NCBI GenBank assembly: GCA_002839545.1 | Contig: PGYG01000003.1 | Span: 1-32,718 of the forward strand | From: Candidatus Methanoperedentaceae archaeon HGW-Methanoperedenaceae-1 | Lineage (GTDB): Archaea; Halobacteriota; Methanosarcinia; Methanosarcinales; Methanoperedenaceae | Direction: 5' to 3' | DNA: 32,718 nucleotides | In this document: positions 1,049 to 17,119 of the stretch, piece by piece | Numbering within the stretch: position 1 is the first letter of the stretch | Layout of the letters: the number at the start of each line of letters is the position of its first letter | Made by a program: the position numbers and the translations under genes | Notes under the pieces: model-generated | The model's database searches: none | Seen by the model: only the letters and a program-made list of their open reading frames with translations | What the model was told of the DNA's origin: nothing

Positions 1049-3706
1049 TTAATTTTCCATAATAATGAACCATTTACCATCCTTTAATCCTGTATACGAC
1101 TTCTTACCGTTAACAACATTGAAATTATTTACAACCTCATAGTTCTTTTCTACTTCAATTTCTGTTTCATCATATACAATAAACTTACCATTTAATCTAT
1201 TTGCAATAAAAGCAATGCTACCGTTGATATCGGTTGGGGATCGGATATCATTGTACTTTTTTCCAATTTCCACCCCGTCATAAACAATGATTAACTTACC
1301 TCCTTTATTTGCAAGATAAGCTAGTTTACCGTTAATGTTGACAGGATTCCAGGCATCATCATATTGTGAGCTCACGACTTTTTCCCCGTGAACAATGAAC
1401 CTTTTGTAGTTGTTTTCAGCAGTATATGCTATTTTCTCGCCTACAACAATGAGATCATATATATTCTCGTATTCTACTCCCTCCTTTCCGTTATAAACTA
1501 CAATCCACATTCCATCTTTTTTATATGTATGATCGATTTTTCCTTCAGCGTCATAAACTGAAACCCATCTCACGTCTTTTTGAGCTTTATAGACCATCTG
1601 ATTGTTGACGTTCATAAAATTCTTGATCTTGCGGTATTTTATGCCTTCTAAACCGTTGAAGACAGTAAACGATCTCTCACCTAGATTAGCAACGTATGCA
1701 GGCTGCCCCCCAACATCTATAACTGTCTCTACATTATCATATTGTTTTCCAAGTTCCCTTCCTTTATAAATAATTAAGTTTTTCAACAAAATTACGTCGC
1801 CATCCATATATTCAGTGTTGACAACATATAGCGTCTCCCTTCCAACATCAACGAAATAACTCATACTGTAGTTTAATACTTCTTCTTCCCCATCAATAAC
1901 CGCGAAAAATTGATCTTCGTTCTTTGCACCATAAGCCAGCTTTCCCCCAACATCGGCGGGAGACCAGACAAATCTGTATTGTGTTCCGAATTCTCTTCCA
2001 TCATAAGCTATGATGTATCCATCCTCACAAGCTCCATAAGCGGCTTTTCCGGCAACATTTATAATAGAATTGATACAATTATATGGTTTTCCTTCATCTC
2101 CTCCATAAACTAAGAACCACTTTCCCTTCTTTTTTGCCTTGTAAACAACTTTTCCGCCAATATCCTTGATGGATCCAATACTATCATATTTGTTTCCTTC
2201 TTTGCCATCATGAACAACCACATACCCCCCATCTTTTATAGCTTTAAATGTGACTTTTCCGCCAACGTCACTAACACTCTCTATACTGTCATATTGCCCA
2301 CCTAACTCCCTGCCATGATATACAACAACCATTCCCTCGTCTACTTCAGCAATATAAGCCAATTTCCCACTGATATTGGATATTGAATAAATCCATTTGT
2401 AGTTACCTATTTCCTCACCATCGTAAACAAGAATCCATCTGCCAGATTTAAGGGCTTTATATGCAACCCTGCCCCCCACATCTGTTATAGTTTCAATACT
2501 ACCATACTCTGTTTCCATCTCCACCCCGTCAAGAACGATGAACCATTTTCCATCTCTCTTTGCCGCATAACCCATCTTACCGTTAATTTTCACTGGATTA
2601 TCAATATAGTCATATCTTATCTCCTGTTCTTTACCATCATATACAACAATGGCTCTCCCCCCCTTTGTAGCCTTATAAGCAAGCTTTCCATCAATATCAA
2701 CTAAAGTGCCTACATCATCATAATCGACACCGATTTCGTACCAATCATGGACAACCACCCATTTTCTACCATTCTCGGCTTTATATGCCAACTTCCAGTC
2801 AATGTTAATAAGATCTTGAACACTGTCGTATTGTTTTCCTACAACACCGTTATAGATGATAAGATACTTCTCATCATTTACAGCCATATAGGCTCGTTCT
2901 CCATTGATGACATTGACACTCAAGATGTTTTCGTATTCTCCCCCTATCTCTTTGTCGGCATAAACAACCCTTGCAAGATTATCTTTAACACTCACATAAG
3001 CTAACTTTCCGCTCCAGTTATATGGTAATGTTGAATACTCATATTCAGTACCTACTTCCTCTTTATCATAGACTACTACATTACTTCCATTTTTCAGGGT
3101 AGTATAGGCAATCTTTCCATTCACATTTAAAATATCAAAAAATACATTGTACTGAGTTTCTATCTCTTCACCGTCATAAATTAGAAAATATATTCCATCT
3201 TTATTAGCGCGATATAATATCTTCCCATCAACTTCTGTATAAGACAGGACAATGTCATATTGTGTTCCAATTTCTGTGTTGTCATATACAAGAATCCATG
3301 TTCCGTTTTTTCCGGCTAAATATGCGGTCTTCCCGCCAATCTTCCTTAAATCAGTTATATCATCGTAATAAGTTCCTTCAGTACCATTATTAACAATTAA
3401 TTTCTTACCGTCCTTTTCGCATATATATACTGGACTGTTATTGAAAAGACCCAGAAAATCAATACTTTCATAGGGTCCCAACTGATGCCATTCCCTTTGG
3501 TCAGGACTATTTAATTGAATTTGTGATACATCTTTGTCATCTTCTTGGACCGCCCCGAGCATTTTTGTTTGAACTACGGTGTTTGTTTCTTCGGCAGGTA
3601 CTTCTAAACCGACGGACTGATTTTCTTTATATATACAACCTGAAAAAAATATTGACAATAACAATATAACAATTAAACTTGATTGTAATAGGTTTTTCAA
3701 GGTCAT
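1049..3706 (-). CDS. Lipoprotein with ~22 tandem ~36-aa repeats (WG-like / beta-propeller-like)
   Basis: Internal Met at 3706 gives MTLKNLLQSSLIVILLLSIFFSGC, a signal peptide with lipobox. The rest is repeated [GN]GK[LIV]AYxAxKDGKWxxVYDGxEIGxxYDSIxxxxDV. The ORF track start at 3784 adds 26 aa upstream of the signal peptide. Confidence 0.75.
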   Translation of the reverse strand: MTLKNLLQSSLIVILLLSIFFSGCIYKENQSVGLEVPAEETNTVVQTKMLGAVQEDDKDVSQIQLNSPDQREWHQLGPYESIDFLGLFNNSPVYICEKDGKKLIVNNGTEGTYYDDITDLRKIGGKTAYLAGKNGTWILVYDNTEIGTQYDIVLSYTEVDGKILYRANKDGIYFLIYDGEEIETQYNVFFDILNVNGKIAYTTLKNGSNVVVYDKEEVGTEYEYSTLPYNWSGKLAYVSVKDNLARVVYADKEIGGEYENILSVNVINGERAYMAVNDEKYLIIYNGVVGKQYDSVQDLINIDWKLAYKAENGRKWVVVHDWYEIGVDYDDVGTLVDIDGKLAYKATKGGRAIVVYDGKEQEIRYDYIDNPVKINGKMGYAAKRDGKWFIVLDGVEMETEYGSIETITDVGGRVAYKALKSGRWILVYDGEEIGNYKWIYSISNISGKLAYIAEVDEGMVVVYHGRELGGQYDSIESVSDVGGKVTFKAIKDGGYVVVHDGKEGNKYDSIGSIKDIGGKVVYKAKKKGKWFLVYGGDEGKPYNCINSIINVAGKAAYGACEDGYIIAYDGREFGTQYRFVWSPADVGGKLAYGAKNEDQFFAVIDGEEEVLNYSMSYFVDVGRETLYVVNTEYMDGDVILLKNLIIYKGRELGKQYDNVETVIDVGGQPAYVANLGERSFTVFNGLEGIKYRKIKNFMNVNNQMVYKAQKDVRWVSVYDAEGKIDHTYKKDGMWIVVYNGKEGVEYENIYDLIVVGEKIAYTAENNYKRFIVHGEKVVSSQYDDAWNPVNINGKLAYLANKGGKLIIVYDGVEIGKKYNDIRSPTDINGSIAFIANRLNGKFIVYDETEIEVEKNYEVVNNFNVVNGKKSYTGLKDGKWFIIMEN
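1052..3439 (-). repeat. Tandem coding repeats of ~105-108 nt (35-36 aa), about 22 units
   Basis: Manual alignment of the translation, e.g. GGKTAYLAGKNGTWILVYDNTEIGTQYDIVLSYTEV / DGKILYRANKDGIYFLIYDGEEIETQYNVFFDILNV / GGKVVYKAKKKGKWFLVYGGDEGKPYNCINSIINV. Confidence 0.9.
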
Positions 3707-3936
3707 TTTATTAATATATACCGTTTCAGGACTTAAAAAAACTGTTGTAATGGTCGATATTTCAGTTCTCGGATACATTCCCAACAGTGTTTGGTGAAAA
3801 GACCGGCATTTCAGATTTGCAGATGTATGTTCATAGTTACTTTTTGGATATGATATTGAGAATTGTAATTGTAATAGAAAATCTCTCTAAAGGTAAAGTA
3901 TATTTATGCGAGACATAAATGATTTAGAAGCAAGGT

Positions 3937-5292: not shown

Positions 5293-5526
5293 TAACTCAC
5301 CTGTTCCAGACCTTTATATTATGTTATTGTTTAAAATAGTTGCCCAATGAAAAATATAACCCGCCCCAATCCAGAAGGTCAGGCTTTAACACTCCCTGGG
5401 GCGTAGCAGCAAGCTTAAAGTCCAGCATAACTTAATCATTATTATACTGATTTTATATAGCATATATAGATTATTGTGATAAAGTATATACATTCAGGAA
5501 AAACAACTGGGATAGAGACAATAAGA

Positions 5527-6486
5527 ATGACGGAGATTATAAGAATGATACGTATGGACAGGTTAAAGACAATAATAATTATAATTCTAGCTGGCGTATT
5601 CCTGGCAGGATGCGTGGACAATAATGAAAAACCACCAGATAATACTGCACAGCCTCTTTCAGGCACAGTCAAAGCAGACGGCTCAAGCACTGTATTCCCG
5701 ATAAGCGAAGCAGTGGCAGAGGAATTCCAGAAGCTCCATCCCAACGTCAGGGTAACCGTTGGTATCAGCGGCACAGGCGGAGGCTTCAAGAAATTCTGCA
5801 CAGGCGAGACCGATATAAACGATGCCTCAAGAGCGATAAAAGATTCCGAGAAAGAACTCTGTGCAAAGAACGGCATCACATACGAGGAATTCGCAGTGGC
5901 TTTTGACGGGCTTTCCGTGATGGTAAATCCCCAGAATGATTGGGTAGATTCTCTTACAGTTGCAGAGCTAAAGAAGATATGGGAGCCAAACAGCACTGTT
6001 AAGACATGGAAAGACGTACGCCCCAACTTCCCCAATGAGAAGATAATTCTTGTAGGAGCTGACACGGATTCAGGCACTTTTGACTATTTCACAGAAACGA
6101 TAGTAGGCAAGGAGAAATCCAGCAGGTCTGACTACACCGCAAGCGCGGATGATAATGTGCTTGTGCAGGCTATTGCAGGTGAGAAATATGCCCTTGGATA
6201 CTTCGGCTATGCATACTATGTTGAAAATCCGGGCAAGTTGAAACTGGTGGCAATAGACAGCGGTAAAGGGCAGGTTCTTCCTTCAGAGCAGACAATCAAT
6301 GACGGCACATATAAGCCATTATCAAGACCGCTCTTAATTTATGTAAATAAAGAATCCATGAAGCGTCCTGAAATTAAAGAGTTCGTAAAATATTACTTCA
6401 CTGCAGGAAAAGAGCTTGTATCGCAGGTAGGCTACGTGAAGATGCCGGATACGGTGTATGAAGAAGCATTGAGCAGGCTGGAATAA
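5527..6486 (+). CDS. pstS: Phosphate ABC transporter substrate-binding lipoprotein
   Basis: Lipobox [11 protein letters not shown], then [43 protein letters not shown] and [12 protein letters not shown]. Exact start ambiguous (GTG 5476, ATG 5527, 5545 or 5554). Confidence 0.93.
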
Positions 6487-6526
6487 AAACGCAAGTAATA
6501 TATCATGAAGTACAGGGTAAGAGCTA

Positions 6527-7429
6527 ATGGAGATAAGACCGGATGCATTGAAATGGCAAAACATCAGGGAGATGGCTATCGAGAAAGCCTTCTTCCTCTG
6601 CGCCATTGTTTCTATTTTGACGACTCTCGGTATTGTTCTTGTCCTTGTTTTTGAGACTTTTTCCTTTTTTAAGGAAGTCCCCGTCCTTGAATTCCTCACA
6701 GGCACGACCTGGGCACCCACATACCGCCCGCAGCATTTTGGCGTGCTCCCATTGATAAACGGCACGTTGATGATAGCAGGCGGCGCGGCTGTCATAGCAA
6801 TCCCGCTTGGCATAGCCAGCGCCATATATCTCAGTGAATATGCAAGCGCAAAAGTCCGCAATACCGTGAAACCCGCACTTGAGATTCTTGCAGGCATACC
6901 GACTGTGGTGTACGGTTATTTTGCAATAAGTTTCATAACCCCGCTTTTGCGGAATTTTGTGGACACAAACATCTTCAATGCCGCTTCTGCAAGTATTGTT
7001 GTTGGTATTATGATACTTCCCATGATATCAAGCCTGAGTGAGGATGCCATGCGCTCTGTTCCCCGTGCATTAAGGGAAGGCGCATATGCGCTTGGCTCAA
7101 CCAAATTTGATGTTTCAACAAAAATCGTTGTACCGTCTGCGCTTTCAGGCATAATCGCCTCTTTTATCCTTGCTATATCACGAGCCATAGGTGAAACCAT
7201 GGCAGTAACCTTAGCCGCAGGCGCAACACCAAAAATGACACTTAATTTCTTTGAAAGTATCCAGACCATGACAGCTTACATCGTCCAGGTAAGTATGGGT
7301 GACACACCATTCGGTAGTATTGAATACAAGACAATATTTGCCGTAGGAATGGTGCTTTTTGTCATGACCCTGTTCATGAACATCGTAAGCATGTGGATAA
7401 AAGGGAGATACAGGGAGGTATACAATTGA
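6527..7429 (+). CDS. pstC: Phosphate ABC transporter permease
   Basis: PstC-like membrane protein with [11 protein letters not shown] and the EAA loop [30 protein letters not shown]; located in the pst operon. Confidence 0.93.
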
Positions 7430-8265
7430 GTATAAAAGGACGGGCATTTGAATACACATGCCTTGCAGCCACAATGACTGCGCTTCTTCTCCTTGCCATG
7501 CTGCTCTGGGATGCATGGGATAAGGGAGCAGGCTGGCTAAGCTGGGAATTCCTTACCAGTTTCCCGTCACGGTTTCCTGAAAAGGCAGGTATAAAATCCG
7601 CCCTGTGGGGCTCTATATGGCTCATGATTATTACTGCTGTGGTTTCGCTCCCGCTTGGTGTTGGAACAGCAATTTACCTTGAGGAGTACGCTAAGAAAAC
7701 ATGGTTAACAAAGATAATCGAGATTAACATCTCAAACCTTGCAGGCGTTCCAAGTGTTGTTTACGGGCTTCTGGGTCTGGCGCTTTTCGTGCGGGGACTG
7801 GCGCTTGAGAGAAGCCTCATATCAGGCGCACTTACCATATCCCTTCTCATCCTGCCCATAATAATAATTTCAAGCAGGGAAGCCATAAAAGCAGTTCCAT
7901 CCTCAATAAGGGAAGCCTCGCTTGCCCTCGGAGCTACCAGATGGCAGACCGTGAAGTACCACGTCCTGCCTGCCGCACTTCCGGGAATACTTACCGGTAA
8001 TATCCTTGCTCTTTCCCGCGCCATAGGTGAGGCTGCTCCGTTGATTATGATTGGCGCGCTCACTTTTATAGCTTTCACGCCTGAAAGTATATTTGACCCG
8101 TTCACTGCGCTTCCCATCCAGATTTTCAACTGGGCGTCAAGACCAAAAGCAGAATTCCAGTTTCTTGCAGCAGCAGGCATCCTTGTATTGCTTGCTTTGC
8201 TTCTGGCTATGAATGCTGCTGCCATACTCATACGAAACAAATACCAGAGGTACGTAAAATGGTGA
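7426..8265 (+). CDS. pstA: Phosphate ABC transporter permease
   Basis: [18 protein letters not shown] and EAA loop [33 protein letters not shown] start at 7426 with SD GGGAGGT, overlapping the pstC stop; the ORF track start at 7393 is upstream. Confidence 0.92.
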
Positions 8266-8269
8266 TTAA

Positions 8270-9019
8270 ATGACCGCAGCCATCAATACAGTAAATTTAA
8301 ACGCATGGTACGGAAAAACACATGCGCTGAAAAACATTAACCTGAAAATTGAAGATAACAAAATCACAGCCATTATAGGTCCGAGCGGGTGCGGGAAATC
8401 CACGTTCATACGCTGCCTCAACAGGATGAACGACCTTATAGACGGTTTCAGGACTGAAGGTGAGCTTCTGGTTCATGGAACTGATGTGAATCAGGAAGAC
8501 CCTGTAGAACTTCGCAAAAAGGTAGGTATGGTTTTCCAGAAGCCAAACCCATTTCCCAAGAGCATCTATGAGAATATAGCCTATGGTCCGAGAATACATG
8601 GTATAAATGATAAGAAAAAGCTTGACGTTATAGTGGAAACAAGTCTTAAAAATGCAGCCTTATGGGATGAAGTCAAAGACAGGCTCAAAGATAATGCATT
8701 GGAATTAAGCGGAGGTCAGCAGCAGCGCCTGTGTATAGCAAGGGCGCTGGCTGTGGAACCCCAGATTATACTGTTTGACGAGCCATGCTCAGCGTTAGAC
8801 CCTGTCTCGACAAGCAAAATCGAAGACCTGATGACAGACCTTAAGGAAAAATATACCCTTGTCATAGTAACGCATAATATGCAGCAGGCAGCGAGGGTGA
8901 GCGATTATACTGCATTTTTCTTGATGGGTGAGCTGGTAGAGTTTGGAGAAACAAAGCAGATATTCAAGAAGCCGAAAGAGAAAAGCACAGAGGATTACAT
9001 AATAGGGAGGTTTGGATAA
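8270..9019 (+). CDS. pstB: Phosphate ABC transporter ATP-binding protein
   Basis: Walker A GPSGCGKS, signature [16 protein letters not shown], Walker B IILFDEP, and PstB-typical [11 protein letters not shown]. Confidence 0.96.
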
Positions 9020-9672
9020 TGGTAAGGGAAGCATATCACAATGACCTTCACAGGTTGAAGGATGAGACTATAAACATGGCATCACTTGTCGGAAAGGCGA
9101 TAAACGATGCCGTGTTGTCCCTCAAGAACCGTGATGTTGAACTGGCGCAGAAGGTTATTGACATGGATACCGAAATAGACGCTGTATATCACAAAATCGA
9201 GGATGATTGCATGCGCCTGCTTGCACTCCAGCAGCCCATGGCAAGGGATTTGAGGCTTATAATCTCGATATTGAAGATGGGTATTGACCTTGAAAGGATG
9301 GGAGACCTGGCGCTGGAAATCGGGATTATTACACAGATAACAGCAAATGTGCCGCCAATTAAACCACTGATAGACATTCCACGAATGTCAGAGATAAGCC
9401 AGGAAATGCTGGTTAATACCATGAAAGCCTTTAAAAACAAGGATGCTGAACTTGCGAGAGAAATTGCCAGAAAGGATGATGAACTCGATATGCTCTTTGA
9501 CCAGATACGAAGGGAACTTATCTCGTATATGATAGAAGACCCGAAAACGATAACCAGCGCCCAGCACCTTACTTTTGTGGCAAGGTATCTTGAAAGGATT
9601 GGCGACCATATAACAAATCTCTGTGAAGGTGTGGTGTTCATGGTTACAGGAGAAAGGGTGGAGTTAAACTAA
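9019..9672 (+). CDS. phoU: PhoU phosphate signalling protein
   Basis: Two PhoU helical-bundle repeats (ALQQPMARDLRLIISILKMGIDLERMGDLA; HLTFVARYLERIGDHITNLCE) following pstB. Confidence 0.95.
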   Translation: MVREAYHNDLHRLKDETINMASLVGKAINDAVLSLKNRDVELAQKVIDMDTEIDAVYHKIEDDCMRLLALQQPMARDLRLIISILKMGIDLERMGDLALEIGIITQITANVPPIKPLIDIPRMSEISQEMLVNTMKAFKNKDAELAREIARKDDELDMLFDQIRRELISYMIEDPKTITSAQHLTFVARYLERIGDHITNLCEGVVFMVTGERVELN

Positions 9673-12281: not shown

Positions 12282-12603
12282 CTACACGTGAAAAACAACC
12301 CCCTTTGTATTTTCCACAAGGGAATTTCTTAATCCATAAAGACTCTGGCGTGCATCCTTGAAATAAAAGCGCTCCTCAAGGATACCTTTTTTCTTTAACC
12401 TGTCAAGTGCGTACCTGACAGTCCTTGGAGGCAGGTAGGTTTCCCTTGTAATTTCTTTCTGGGTCATTGACCCGCCATGTTCCAGGATTTTAAAAACAAG
12501 TTTTGCCGAAGGTGGCAGCTTTTCCAGCTTAATGTCTTCTTCGGCTACCGGTACGTTATTTATTTCATGGTTGTTTCCAGTAACAACAAAAACGATCCCT
12601 CAT
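12282..12603 (-). CDS. Winged-helix/MarR-like transcriptional regulator, apparently frameshifted near the N-terminus
   Basis: MTQKEITRETYLPPRTVRYALDRLKKKGILEERFYFKDARQSLYGL is wHTH. The same frame continues upstream of that ATG as ...NNVPVAEEDIKLEKLPPSAKLVFKILEHGGS. An SD-preceded ATG at 12603 is one nt out of frame. Confidence 0.65.
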
Positions 12604-12742: not shown

Positions 12743-12979
12743 TTATACCGGAACCATTGCAAGGGTTCCGACAGGGCAGTTACGTGTACACAACCCGCAG
12801 GCAATACACGCATCGTAATTAACAAAGGCTATGCCATTGTTAACAGCAATTGCAAGTTTAGCAGTATTTATATCAAAGTCTTCTTCCTTTGACAACTTTG
12901 TATTTGTCGGGCAGACCGTCACGCAAATCCCGCATCCGTTGCAATTCCCAGAAAGTACAAGTTTCTTATCTTTTGCCAT
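12743..12979 (-). CDS. Ferredoxin with two [4Fe-4S] motifs
   Basis: CNGCGICVTVCP and CIACGLCTRNCP. Confidence 0.92.
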   Translation of the reverse strand: MAKDKKLVLSGNCNGCGICVTVCPTNTKLSKEEDFDINTAKLAIAVNNGIAFVNYDACIACGLCTRNCPVGTLAMVPV

Positions 12980-13017
12980 GAGGTATGATACTGGTTAAAA
13001 CAATATGAATATTTCGT

Positions 13018-14115
13018 TTAGTACATGGGTTCAAGCCCGTCCATTTTATTTGAAATGGATAGATTCTGCATGGCTATCTGTTCCTTCTTCCCACGTTCTT
13101 TTTCGATGGCTTCAACACCAATATTAAATAACCTGTCAAGTTCAACCGATGCCCCGATAGACAGGACCGTCAGTACCCTTGGCATTACGCCGTCTCGTAA
13201 AAGCACACCTTTAAACACATGACCTATATCGCTTGAAAGCCTGTCTACTTCTGTGGTAATGTCGTTAATATTGAGGTATTTTTTATCCCCTTCTATAATC
13301 ATCATTGCCCGTGTCGCTTCTTTATAGGGGTCAATCTGGAAAAGAAGACCGCCGTGAGATAAACTCTGTTTAATGGTTGACTTGATAGTAAGATTATTGC
13401 TGGCTTCACCATAACCGATTGTAGCAAGTTTTGAGCCTGCTGCCATGACAGTCTTAAAATCACCCAGGTCAGTAACCATCATCATTTCACTGTCAAGTGC
13501 CTTTAAGAGGAAAAGGAACCTCTGTGCGATTGTGTGGTTAATACCGTCATAGGCTGCTTTTATATCCTTGCCAAGATTTTTTAAGAACTCGTTATCTGCG
13601 ATGATAGTACCGTCACCGTTTCCCGACATGAGTTCTTTCAGGCAGAAAATCGAATTCTGGAGGTAAATGGAACCTTCTTCCCTGAACGGAAGTACTAAAA
13701 TACCGTAAACATTGAAGTTATACCGTTCTTTCATTGCCTCAATCAAAGGCGGAGTGAACGATGAGCCGGTACCGCCAGAGGCGGAAGCGATTACAAAAGC
13801 GACGTCAAAATCCCCGCGCTCCTCGATAGCGCGAAGCAGGAGTTCCTTGTTATCTTCAAAACAATCCTTTCCGACATTCCTGTTTGCACCGACACCGTGA
13901 AGGTATGGAACGTGTATCCTGTCCCTGGATTTTGTATACCTGAGTTCTTTCAAATCATTTACTGCGGTATTAATCGCAATTGTCTGTACATTGCTTACGA
14001 ATTTCTGTTTTCCGTAATATTTAGAGACAACCCCGCCGCCAAAAGCTTCCCTGTTTATTGAATCAAGTATCCTGTTACCGCACTGTCCAACGCCTATAAG
14101 AAGTATGTTTAACAT
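13018..14115 (-). CDS. Divergent FtsZ/tubulin-superfamily GTPase (CetZ-like/noncanonical)
   Basis: N-terminal ILLIGVGQCGNRILDSI, tubulin signature-like SASGGTGSSFTPPLIEAM, and T7-like VTDLGDFKTVMAAGSKLATIGYGEA. Confidence 0.85.
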   Translation of the reverse strand: MLNILLIGVGQCGNRILDSINREAFGGGVVSKYYGKQKFVSNVQTIAINTAVNDLKELRYTKSRDRIHVPYLHGVGANRNVGKDCFEDNKELLLRAIEERGDFDVAFVIASASGGTGSSFTPPLIEAMKERYNFNVYGILVLPFREEGSIYLQNSIFCLKELMSGNGDGTIIADNEFLKNLGKDIKAAYDGINHTIAQRFLFLLKALDSEMMMVTDLGDFKTVMAAGSKLATIGYGEASNNLTIKSTIKQSLSHGGLLFQIDPYKEATRAMMIIEGDKKYLNINDITTEVDRLSSDIGHVFKGVLLRDGVMPRVLTVLSIGASVELDRLFNIGVEAIEKERGKKEQIAMQNLSISNKMDGLEPMY

Positions 14116-14124
14116 TATGTCCTC

Positions 14125-15291
14125 TTAATATCTATACTCTTTATGTTTTCTAATGGTAAATAATAGTACTCCAATTATTACACCGATTGCAGGTATGATG
14201 ATATACCAGTAATCCACCGGGTTTTTCTCTTTTTTAGTCACTGAAATTGTTTCGGAACTTGTAGCGAAACCAGTTGTATCATCATTGTAGCTGGTTTTCA
14301 GGCGGATTGTATAATTGCCGCCGTCAACAGCCTTTAAAATAATTGAATATGATTCGGATTCCCCTGATTCTATTTTCTTATATACCTGCCTTAAATCACC
14401 TTCTTCCAGTTTCAGCCCGTTCGGAACCAGACCGTCAACAAGTACGGATTCCGCGGAAGAGTTCCCATTATTTGTAATTTTCACAACCATATTGATTAAG
14501 TCATCTGTCATTACATCATTTTTATCAATTGTAATTGCTGTTGTAAGGTTGGATTTTTCCTTCACTTCCCTGGCGACAGTTATTGTAATTGAGTTTGATT
14601 TACTGGTTTTTGAACCATAACTCAGGATTGCGGGTTCAATGTTGAATGTACCCCCCTCTACAGCTTTTAATCCATATACAATCGTATCAATTTGCCCCGG
14701 GTCAAGGCTCTTTTTTATTTCAGGAGGGAACATGGTGCCTGCGGCACGGGTAAAACCACTTGGAAGAAACTCTGTCAGTGTCATGTCGCTGGCTGTCCCG
14801 TTGCCTGTGTTTTCAACAGTTAGCTTGAACTCCACAACATCCCCGATATTGACGTTTGTTTTGCCTACAGATTTTGTCAACACAATATTCGGGACTTTGG
14901 AAGCCTCAATAAGGGCAGGTGTTGCGATTTCATATTTTACAGGAGTGCTCCATGTATCCGGGTATGTGACATTAAGCCTGAAACTAGCCGGGGCAGCAAC
15001 TTGGAACATAGAAGCAGTAATCTGGGTTTTATTATATGGCAACCCTGCCTCTTTAGTTATTGACTCCGCAGAGTCATACAAATAGAATGTTCTTGATGAG
15101 TCACCTGAACTTATATTTACTTTTGCAAAAGTTAAATCACCTGGTTTGCTTATATCAATAATTTCTATTTTGTAATAACCAAGCTCAAAATTCAAGCCGG
15201 TGTTGTTTCGCATCTCAAAACCTTCTGTTGTTGCACTCGCAACACTCGAAAACATCAATAAAACCAGTACTAAAATCCACAGTATTTTCAT
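14125..15291 (-). CDS. COG1361-type surface protein: signal peptide, two DUF11-like domains, C-terminal TM anchor
   Basis: N-terminal signal sequence MKILWILVLVLLMFSSVASA; repeated VENTGNGTASDMTLTEFLPSGF and ITNNGNSSAESVLVDGLVPNGL; C-terminal WYIIIPAIGVIIGVLLFTIRKHKEYRY. Confidence 0.82.
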   Translation of the reverse strand: MKILWILVLVLLMFSSVASATTEGFEMRNNTGLNFELGYYKIEIIDISKPGDLTFAKVNISSGDSSRTFYLYDSAESITKEAGLPYNKTQITASMFQVAAPASFRLNVTYPDTWSTPVKYEIATPALIEASKVPNIVLTKSVGKTNVNIGDVVEFKLTVENTGNGTASDMTLTEFLPSGFTRAAGTMFPPEIKKSLDPGQIDTIVYGLKAVEGGTFNIEPAILSYGSKTSKSNSITITVAREVKEKSNLTTAITIDKNDVMTDDLINMVVKITNNGNSSAESVLVDGLVPNGLKLEEGDLRQVYKKIESGESESYSIILKAVDGGNYTIRLKTSYNDDTTGFATSSETISVTKKEKNPVDYWYIIIPAIGVIIGVLLFTIRKHKEYRY

Positions 15292-15419
15292 TCAGAGTTC
15301 TCCTTTTTCCCATCTGCTATTGTACAATAGATACATCGACAAACGCTTAATAATATTCAATTCTATATAAATCTTATGAGTATAATCATCCATTATAAAT
15401 CCAATAAGAGTAAAAGGAT

Positions 15420-16235
15420 TCACACATTTAGTTTAAGGCTGACATCAAGCCAGTTCGATGAGTGTGTAAGCGCACCGATTGAAATAACATCAATACCTGT
15501 TTTTGAATAATCCCCGATATCACGCAGTGTTATGCCGCCAGAGGCTTCAAGGATAACGTTTTTTCTCAGGTTTTTCTCGTCCAGAGACTTAACACTCTGT
15601 TCAATTTCATCCACAGACATGTTATCAAACATGATAATATCCGCGCCCATTCCAGCCGCAAGTATTGCAGACTCCATATCTTCCACTTCAACTTCAAGCT
15701 TCTGGGTGAAACTTTTTGACTTTTGGGCGTTTTTTATGGCGTTCTCAAGCCCCATGACTTCAATATGGTTATCTTTAATCATAACAGAATCCGAAAGGTT
15801 AAACCTGTGCGGGTCGCCGCCTCCTGCAATAACTGCTTTTTTCTCGAATTTGCGAAAACCTGGTGTTGTTTTTCGTGTGCATGCAATCCTGACGCCGCCT
15901 GCCATGTCAACATACCTGCGTGTAAGTGTGGCAATCCCGCTCATTTTACCAAGGAAATTAAGAGCCAGCCGCTCAGCCCGCAGTATTGACCTTGCTCCGC
16001 CTTCAAGCGTAAATATCACATCATTTTTTTTCACAGCCGAGCCGTCTGTCAGCCCGGTTGCCGCAAATACATCAAAATACTCAAACACCTGTGTGGCTTC
16101 CGCAAGCCCTGCAACAATACCCGCTTCTTTTGAGACAACTTCCCCGCTGACTTCACAGTCAGGGATGATACTGCACGAAACATCGTTATAGCCGATGTCC
16201 TCTTCAATAAAACGCTCAAGTTCTGATAGTAACAT
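15420..16235 (-). CDS. nadC: Nicotinate-nucleotide pyrophosphorylase (carboxylating)
   Basis: ARAERLALNFLGKMSGIATLTRRYVD-type motif (RAERLALNFLGKMSGIAT), TRKTTPGFR, VIKDNHI, EASGGI. Confidence 0.95.
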   Translation of the reverse strand: MLLSELERFIEEDIGYNDVSCSIIPDCEVSGEVVSKEAGIVAGLAEATQVFEYFDVFAATGLTDGSAVKKNDVIFTLEGGARSILRAERLALNFLGKMSGIATLTRRYVDMAGGVRIACTRKTTPGFRKFEKKAVIAGGGDPHRFNLSDSVMIKDNHIEVMGLENAIKNAQKSKSFTQKLEVEVEDMESAILAAGMGADIIMFDNMSVDEIEQSVKSLDEKNLRKNVILEASGGITLRDIGDYSKTGIDVISIGALTHSSNWLDVSLKLNV

Positions 16236-16306: not shown

Positions 16307-17119
16307 ATGCTAAGGATAGGAGTTATCGGCTGCGGTGCTATCGGTGCAGAGATATGTAAGGCAATCGATTCAGGAAAGATAAATGCCGAACTTGCGGCTG
16401 TCTTTGACAGGAACACTGAGCAGTGCGGGAAACTTGTTGAATTGCTTACCACTAAACCTGATATAACAACTCCTGATGAATTAATATCAAGAGCTGATAT
16501 TGTTATCGAGTGCGCTTCTGCTGCTGCTGTCAGGGAATTCGGGCTTGCGGTTCTTGAACGTGGAAAAGAGCTTATGGTTATGAGTGTAGGGGCGCTGACT
16601 GACCCTGTTTTTCTCGAAAGCCTCAGGGAAACCGCTTCTGCAAATGGATGCAGGATATATGTTCCATCAGGTGCCGTCACAGGTCTTGACGGCTTGAAAT
16701 CCGCATCTGTTATTCATATTGATAAAGTAACCTTGTGCACAACAAAGAACCCAAAAGGACTGGAAGGCGCACCTTATATTACTGAAAATAACATCGACCT
16801 TGCCTCTTTCCGTGAAAAAACCCTCCTGTTTGAGGGAAGTGCAAAAGAAGCTATCAGGGCATTTCCTGCAAATGTTAATGTTGCAACCTCGCTAAGCCTT
16901 GCCGGGATTGGCGTTGAAAAGACACAGGTAAAGGTTTTCGCTGACCCGGCTGCTTCACGGAACATTCATGAGATTGAAGTCGAAGGTGAGTTCGGGAAGT
17001 TCACATGCCGTATTGAGAATGTGCCATGTCCCGGAAATCCAAGGACAAGCTTTCTTGCAGCCCTGTCAGCAATCGCCACGCTAAAGAGGATAACCGAACC
17101 GCTGCAAATTGGTACCTGA
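16307..17119 (+). CDS. nadX: L-aspartate dehydrogenase
   Basis: GVIGCGAIGAEI Rossmann motif, PSGAVTGLDGLKSAS, FPANVNVATSLSLAGIG; next to nadC. Confidence 0.9.
   Translation: MLRIGVIGCGAIGAEICKAIDSGKINAELAAVFDRNTEQCGKLVELLTTKPDITTPDELISRADIVIECASAAAVREFGLAVLERGKELMVMSVGALTDPVFLESLRETASANGCRIYVPSGAVTGLDGLKSASVIHIDKVTLCTTKNPKGLEGAPYITENNIDLASFREKTLLFEGSAKEAIRAFPANVNVATSLSLAGIGVEKTQVKVFADPAASRNIHEIEVEGEFGKFTCRIENVPCPGNPRTSFLAALSAIATLKRITEPLQIGT

Follow-up and report, generated by a model that had tools for sequence, protein, structure and literature searches.

The gene for a DUF11 transmembrane protein with a conserved C-terminal tail is linked to the cetZ gene of Methanosarcinia

The gene for the Methanosarcinia-type CetZ, a tubulin-superfamily GTPase, is obligately linked to a gene for a DUF11 membrane protein. 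Of 101 distinct loci, 95 include at least 1,300 nt of sequence upstream of cetZ, and in 94 of these the DUF11 gene adjoins cetZ on the upstream side, with both genes on one strand. The pairing of a membrane-anchored DUF11 protein with a tubulin-like GTPase, which the first-pass annotation had proposed, is thus borne out by these loci and by the joint presence and absence of the two genes. Our observations concern the gene identities, their adjacency, their joint presence and absence, and a signature in the C-terminal tail of the DUF11 protein. We lean towards the reading that this protein is dedicated to CetZ as its transmembrane partner and that its tail would recruit CetZ to the membrane. 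It is therefore a testable candidate link between the CetZ cytoskeleton and the cell envelope, in a group that includes aceticlastic methanogens as well as methane-oxidizing ANME-2 and Methanoperedens archaea.

The window is the whole stretch of DNA that was analyzed, 32,718 nucleotides of contig PGYG01000003.1. Read from the sequence, the ORFs for the ferredoxin, the GTPase and the DUF11 protein are all found on the minus strand at the positions first noted, with the 9-nt gap between DUF11 gene and cetZ that had been claimed. The minus-strand gene order is nadC, 128 nt, DUF11 gene, 9 nt, cetZ, 38 nt, ferredoxin gene, and nadX is divergent from nadC. The features are the following.

16307..17119, plus strand: nadX, L-aspartate dehydrogenase (Pfam Asp_DH_C, 9.3e-37)
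15420..16235, minus strand: nadC, quinolinate phosphoribosyltransferase (Pfam QRPTase_C, 1.9e-58)
15364..15371, minus strand: possible archaeal TATA box TTTATATA, about 73 nt 5' of the DUF11 start, read from the sequence
14125..15291, minus strand: DUF11 transmembrane partner, 388 aa (Pfam DUF11, 4.9e-16; BatD-like, 6.7e-11)
14152..14220, minus strand: predicted transmembrane helix of the partner, residues ~358-380 (helix 358-386 in the model), with a hydrophobic 19-mer
14128..14151, minus strand: tail RKHKEYRY-COOH of the partner, the lowest-entropy segment of the protein
14116..14124, minus strand: 9-nt spacer between DUF11 gene and cetZ, reading GAGGACATA, with a Shine-Dalgarno-like GAGG ahead of cetZ
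13018..14115, minus strand: cetZ, Methanosarcinia-type tubulin-superfamily GTPase, 365 aa (Pfam Tubulin, 5.4e-29)
13759..13785, minus strand: T4 nucleotide-binding loop SASGGTGSS, residues 111-119, read directly
13459..13476, minus strand: T7-type catalytic loop VTDLGD, residues 214-219, 6/6 residues invariant among 25 orthologs
13021..13038, minus strand: CetZ C-terminal peptide GLEPMY-COOH, closing a variable linker (consensus G-[LM]-[ED]-P-x-Y)
12743..12979, minus strand: 2[4Fe-4S] ferredoxin, 78 aa, with two C-x2-C-x2-C-x3-C-P motifs (Pfam Fer4, 3e-13)

Identity of the GTPase

The GTPase is a clear ortholog of the CetZ family with a solved structure. Its top PDB match is 3zid, the CetZ of Methanosaeta thermophila (E 9e-123), which is listed with bound GDP (PMC11594714). 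In Foldseek comparisons, the predicted model matched 3zid with a TM-score of 0.87-0.88 and 51% identity; 4b45 and 4b46 (Haloferax CetZ2 and CetZ1) ranked next, followed by FtsZs. We also built a tree of 49 rows, with FtsZs taken from eight reference genomes and from the genome under study. All 32 CetZ rows were split from the 17 FtsZ rows at 100/100, and the Methanosarcinia-type CetZs formed one group (94/96) beside 19 other CetZs (100/99). The GTPase thus falls outside FtsZ1 and FtsZ2 and with CetZ. The protein, first described as a "divergent FtsZ/tubulin-like GTPase", is divergent only relative to FtsZ. A new tubulin family was considered and rejected, in view of the grouping with CetZ in the tree and of the solved ortholog.

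The NCBIfam ftsZ equivalog TIGR00065 scored 73.9 bits, below its cut-off of 295.2, and Pfam CetZ_C reached 19.9 bits (cut-off 21.6) with 62 of 180 positions aligned. The genome contains three tubulin-superfamily genes, the one cetZ and two of FtsZ type (FtsZ1 and FtsZ2). In the genome contigs searched, the closest named relative of the cetZ gene is found in Candidatus Methanoperedenaceae archaeon Kmv03 (93% identity). The boundary of the subgroup is sharp, as matches within the phylum fall from E 1e-164 to 1e-37, and outside the class, families f16 and f23 were the only ones in which the Methanosarcinia-type CetZ was detected.

The two sequence motifs named at first, SASGGTGSS and VTDLGD, are present exactly as given, and the FtsZ motif GGGTGTG is absent from the GTPase. 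In the aligned T4 loops, SGGTGSS here corresponds to GGGTGTG in the FtsZ rows and to GGGTGSG in other CetZs. The GGTGSS core is nearly or fully invariant among the 25 orthologs, with S111, G114, G115, G117, S118, S119 and F120 invariant. At the other end of the protein, the C-terminal peptide has its final Y in 99 of 101 sequences and its P in 94 of 101. Other CetZs, which have no DUF11 partner, have similar C-termini, for example IEPLF, so that the peptide is a trait of the family and not specific to the partner. Judged from these sequences, its binding target may be something other than the DUF11 protein.

Much of this agrees with earlier work on the family. The available text of Brown & Duggin 2023 (PMC9856176) describes one CetZ per Methanosarcinales genome, near nadC/nadA/nadX. 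The protein in the window resembles 3zid and the "non-Halobacteria-like" Methanosarcinales CetZs of that text in full-length identity (51%), in fold, in the SGGTGSSF loop, in the single copy per genome and in the nadC/nadX surroundings; nadC and nadX are part of the known cetZ neighborhood described there. The CetZ therefore adds a member to an established group, whose single copy per genome and nad neighborhood were already known. Tree and fold also place it in one family with CetZ1 and CetZ2 of Haloferax volcanii (PDB 4b46/4b45), although identity is only 22-23% and the loop is the canonical GGGTGSG there. CetZ-related proteins in Halobacterota further include the Halo.Tub and CetZ-like groups (PMC9871819), whose gene context is described as coiled-coil genes and tandem copies rather than a DUF11 membrane protein as here.

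The DUF11 partner and its tail

The DUF11 domain of the partner scored 59.5 bits (gathering score 24.6), in two stretches. The protein is predicted to comprise a signal peptide, a beta-sandwich (Ig-like) ectodomain, one C-terminal transmembrane helix and a tail of 7-8 residues. In the AlphaFold model (pLDDT 85.5, pTM 0.43), an N-terminal hydrophobic helix is followed by beta-sandwich domains, and a single long helix at the C-terminus spans the membrane and reaches the tail. Foldseek searches of this model against the PDB gave nothing beyond generic beta-sandwich folds (integrin, transglutaminase/protein 4.2, RbmA), none with a TM-score above 0.36, and the fold search thus gives no functional hint. 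The ectodomain is of the same type as in the DUF11/BatD-like surface proteins of methanogens and is weakly conserved, with ~20-30% identity between families. Because of the signal peptide, the single C-terminal transmembrane helix and the positive charges, the tail is predicted to be cytoplasmic.

The tail is far better conserved than the rest of the protein, with an entropy of 1.33 bits, versus 1.74 for the transmembrane segment and a whole-protein mean of 2.24. Its consensus is [RK]-x-[RK]-[QE]-[YF]-[KRS]-[FYM]-COOH, with x = [HRSY]. In the fetched neighborhoods, this signature was found in 96/96 true partner ORFs and in 0/108 other C-terminally anchored ORFs. Of 2,053 ORFs with 100 aa or more that are not partners, a single one carried it, in control sets that include some spurious ORFs. 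A control restricted to DUF11 proteins of eight genomes gave the same picture, with the tail in 8/8 neighbors of CetZ and in 0/7 other anchored DUF11 proteins. The latter end in short arginine/lysine tails in these genomes, not in [QE][YF]x[YF]. One profile-matched ORF, in locus L033, turned out to be a different DUF11 protein, which ends in LRRKV and has no such tail.

The score on the partner side is partly by construction, since the pattern was written after viewing the alignment, whereas the counts for non-partner ORFs and the relocated partner of genome G246 (see below) are independent of the alignment-derived pattern. Searching whole genomes for the tail with a degenerate DNA pattern proved too unspecific, as the reversed control also matched many genomes; the protein-level control was used instead.

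These observations suggest a two-gene module that would connect cytoskeleton and envelope, with the ferredoxin outside it. CetZ would be a cytosolic, GTP-binding tubulin-like protein that presumably polymerizes. The DUF11 protein, by its predicted topology and fold, would expose its Ig-like ectodomain outside the cell and, beyond one membrane helix, a short basic-aromatic tail inside. This tail, or a membrane patch marked by it, could bind CetZ and so recruit and position it at the membrane, where CetZ assemblies might exert an effect on the envelope or react to it. By analogy with Haloferax CetZ1, a role in cell shape or envelope remodeling, as suggested in the first-pass annotation, is plausible. 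The small size of the cytoplasmic tail, only 7-8 residues, speaks against the recruitment reading. A more far-reaching idea, to which we give only tentative weight, is that of a single-pass surface receptor which ties the tubulin-family cytoskeleton to the envelope via its short cytosolic tail, loosely like an integrin, and passes mechanical or adhesive information from one side of the membrane to the other.

The DUF11 protein and CetZ might also form a functional pair without direct docking. The tail would then bind a third protein (for example SepF, a MinD homolog or secretion machinery), and CetZ would be reached through this intermediary. The similar C-terminal peptides of CetZs that have no DUF11 partner fit such an arrangement, as does the link between MinD and CetZ1 reported in Haloferax (PMC11621097). 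However, the tail signature is essentially confined to CetZ partners among the sequences examined and vanishes with CetZ, and no third gene was comparably linked in the fetched neighborhoods. We consider an intermediary rather unlikely on this evidence.

We think it less likely still that the DUF11 protein is a cargo, with CetZ polymers determining the place or time of its insertion and the tail serving as a targeting signal that is read at the CetZ site. A conserved tail on a diverging ectodomain would suit a sorting signal equally well, and a coupling of envelope synthesis to mid-cell machinery has been discussed for Haloferax (PMC7617429). On the other hand, many other anchored surface proteins of the same genomes lack the tail, so that the sorting system would have to serve a single substrate.

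Recruitment of CetZ by a dedicated transmembrane partner would have a parallel in FtsZ and its membrane anchor SepF. SepF is a cytosolic anchor that uses an amphipathic helix and binds the tail of FtsZ. The candidate anchor described here, which would bind CetZ, differs in having a signal peptide, an ectodomain and a transmembrane helix. The comparison with archaeal FtsZ and SepF (PMC8178401, PMC8187382) is an analogy only, in that both systems combine a GTPase ending in a short conserved C-terminal peptide with a separate membrane-linking protein. As the candidate partner always accompanies this CetZ and its tail is short and defined, the questions of what CetZ does outside haloarchaea and of how it meets the membrane become approachable in Methanosarcina acetivorans, a genetically tractable methanogen.

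Linkage and joint occurrence of the two genes

A first round of loci, sampled across the class, had an A1-family DUF11 gene next to cetZ on its upstream side, in the same orientation, in 39/39 cases. The sole exception in the set of 95 loci is G246, a genome from outside the class. Here, the partner gene (522 aa; L334 1006-2574 on G246:C40) lies about 8 kb away, on the strand opposite cetZ, and its product carries the tail RHKQYSYK. Where the sequence extended 4,500 nt or more upstream (87 loci), the partner gene was found there 86 times, nadC 57 times and nadX 56 times. The pair of cetZ and DUF11 gene thus outlasts local synteny. It is also present outside the class in G255 and G264, and it has been duplicated as a pair in G044, G070 and G173. 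No DUF11 partner was detected within the 6 kb fetched around the cetZ genes of other CetZ groups, in a best-scoring second-tier sample that was not exhaustive.

Joint occurrence was analyzed in 238 genomes of the class. At E 1e-20, CetZ was detected in 190 of them; at E 1e-30, the partner was detected in 191. Both genes were present in 187 genomes and both absent from 44; seven calls were discordant (CetZ only in G022, G042 and G151, partner only in G043, G065, G005 and G123). Four of the seven are contig-end cases. In G123 and G005, a contig opens with a fragment of the partner gene; in G022, the last 115 residues of the partner, tail included, are found at a contig end adjoining cetZ; and in G042, cetZ itself is truncated at an open frame end. 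In two further genomes, G043 and G065, the matches are unrelated DUF11 proteins without the tail. In the remaining genome, G151, all that is left of cetZ is a remnant interrupted by a stop, next to nadC, a loss of the cetZ-DUF11 module caught in progress. After this inspection, none of the 238 genomes clearly had one gene and lacked the other. Joint absence is scattered across genus g24, a large share of g26 and some of g2.

The decaying cetZ of G151 (L346, G151:C12 about 88176-88469) has a 115-residue frame with an internal stop, in a g26 genome without the partner. A second cetZ in G008 (L109 4849-5364, G008:C1 about 1389725-1390360) is present as its C-terminal half only (residues 155-366, ending in GMEPEY), directly upstream of type I CRISPR-Cas-like genes.

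Since one deletion can remove an adjacent pair, such co-occurrence is weaker evidence than independent loss of unlinked genes would be, and the partner of G246, relocated yet retained, is more telling than joint presence and absence. It also bears on the view that the adjacency is inherited gene order of little functional meaning, with two unrelated genes in one transcription unit. Orthologous loci do share descent, and adjacent genes can go together, but nadC and nadX have been lost from the neighborhood while the pair stayed, and in G246 the partner has moved and was nevertheless kept with its tail; we therefore regard this explanation as highly improbable.

The obligate DUF11 partner and its tail appear to be new, as features added here to the account in the available text of Brown & Duggin 2023 (PMC9856176). 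No paper among those searched mentions both "CetZ" and "DUF11", though an earlier mention may exist in the 2015 Nature CetZ paper or in supplements. In the available text of PMC9856176, four arCOGs are listed (00476, 04459, 00245, 01482) but only nadC, nadA and nadX are named; the fourth, without a name, could in principle be the DUF11 gene.

The ferredoxin gene and other genes of the window

The first-pass annotation had placed a two-cluster ferredoxin downstream of the GTPase gene on the same strand, and the two cysteine motifs and the Fer4 match agree with this. All three genes adjoin in other Methanoperedenaceae as well, so that neither this neighborhood nor the placement of the GTPase outside FtsZ1 and FtsZ2 refutes the first-pass proposal by its own criteria. 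The ferredoxin gene is found 3' of cetZ in most loci of this family, usually with a gap of 38 nt, and is here probably co-transcribed with cetZ. In the fetched loci, only members of the Methanoperedenaceae (f1) genera g1 and g2, and not all of these, had a ferredoxin gene at most 600 nt 3' of cetZ, and none was beside cetZ in families f2, f3, f4, f5 and f7 or in genus g3. The ferredoxin was therefore rejected as a member of the module and is regarded as a lineage-specific neighbor. G044 and G070 each contain two cetZ-DUF11 pairs (L039/L040 and L041/L042, respectively), with a ferredoxin gene by one copy in each genome and none adjoining the second cetZ copy.

A link to the redox state, raised in the first-pass annotation, is unsupported, because the ferredoxin neighbor is confined to some Methanoperedenaceae and absent from all other families sampled. 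A three-gene module under ferredoxin-based redox control is hardly credible to us, as the close spacing within Methanoperedenaceae, which would favor it, stands against the ferredoxin-free cetZ loci of the other groups and of the second copies in G044 and G070.

Other genes of the window were noted in passing. A short winged-helix ORF is located at 12282-12467 (minus strand), and its Pfam matches miss the N-terminal part of the domain. As the same length is conserved in L033, the ORF probably has an unusual start codon and is not a broken gene. Judging from the translations, 5476-9672 (plus strand) holds a phosphate-uptake run of PstS-, PstC-, PstA-, PstB- and PhoU-like genes. At 1049-3784 (minus strand), a putative secreted lipoprotein of 911 aa contains many repeats of the type GKxAYxAxKxGxxxVVYDGxExGxxY.
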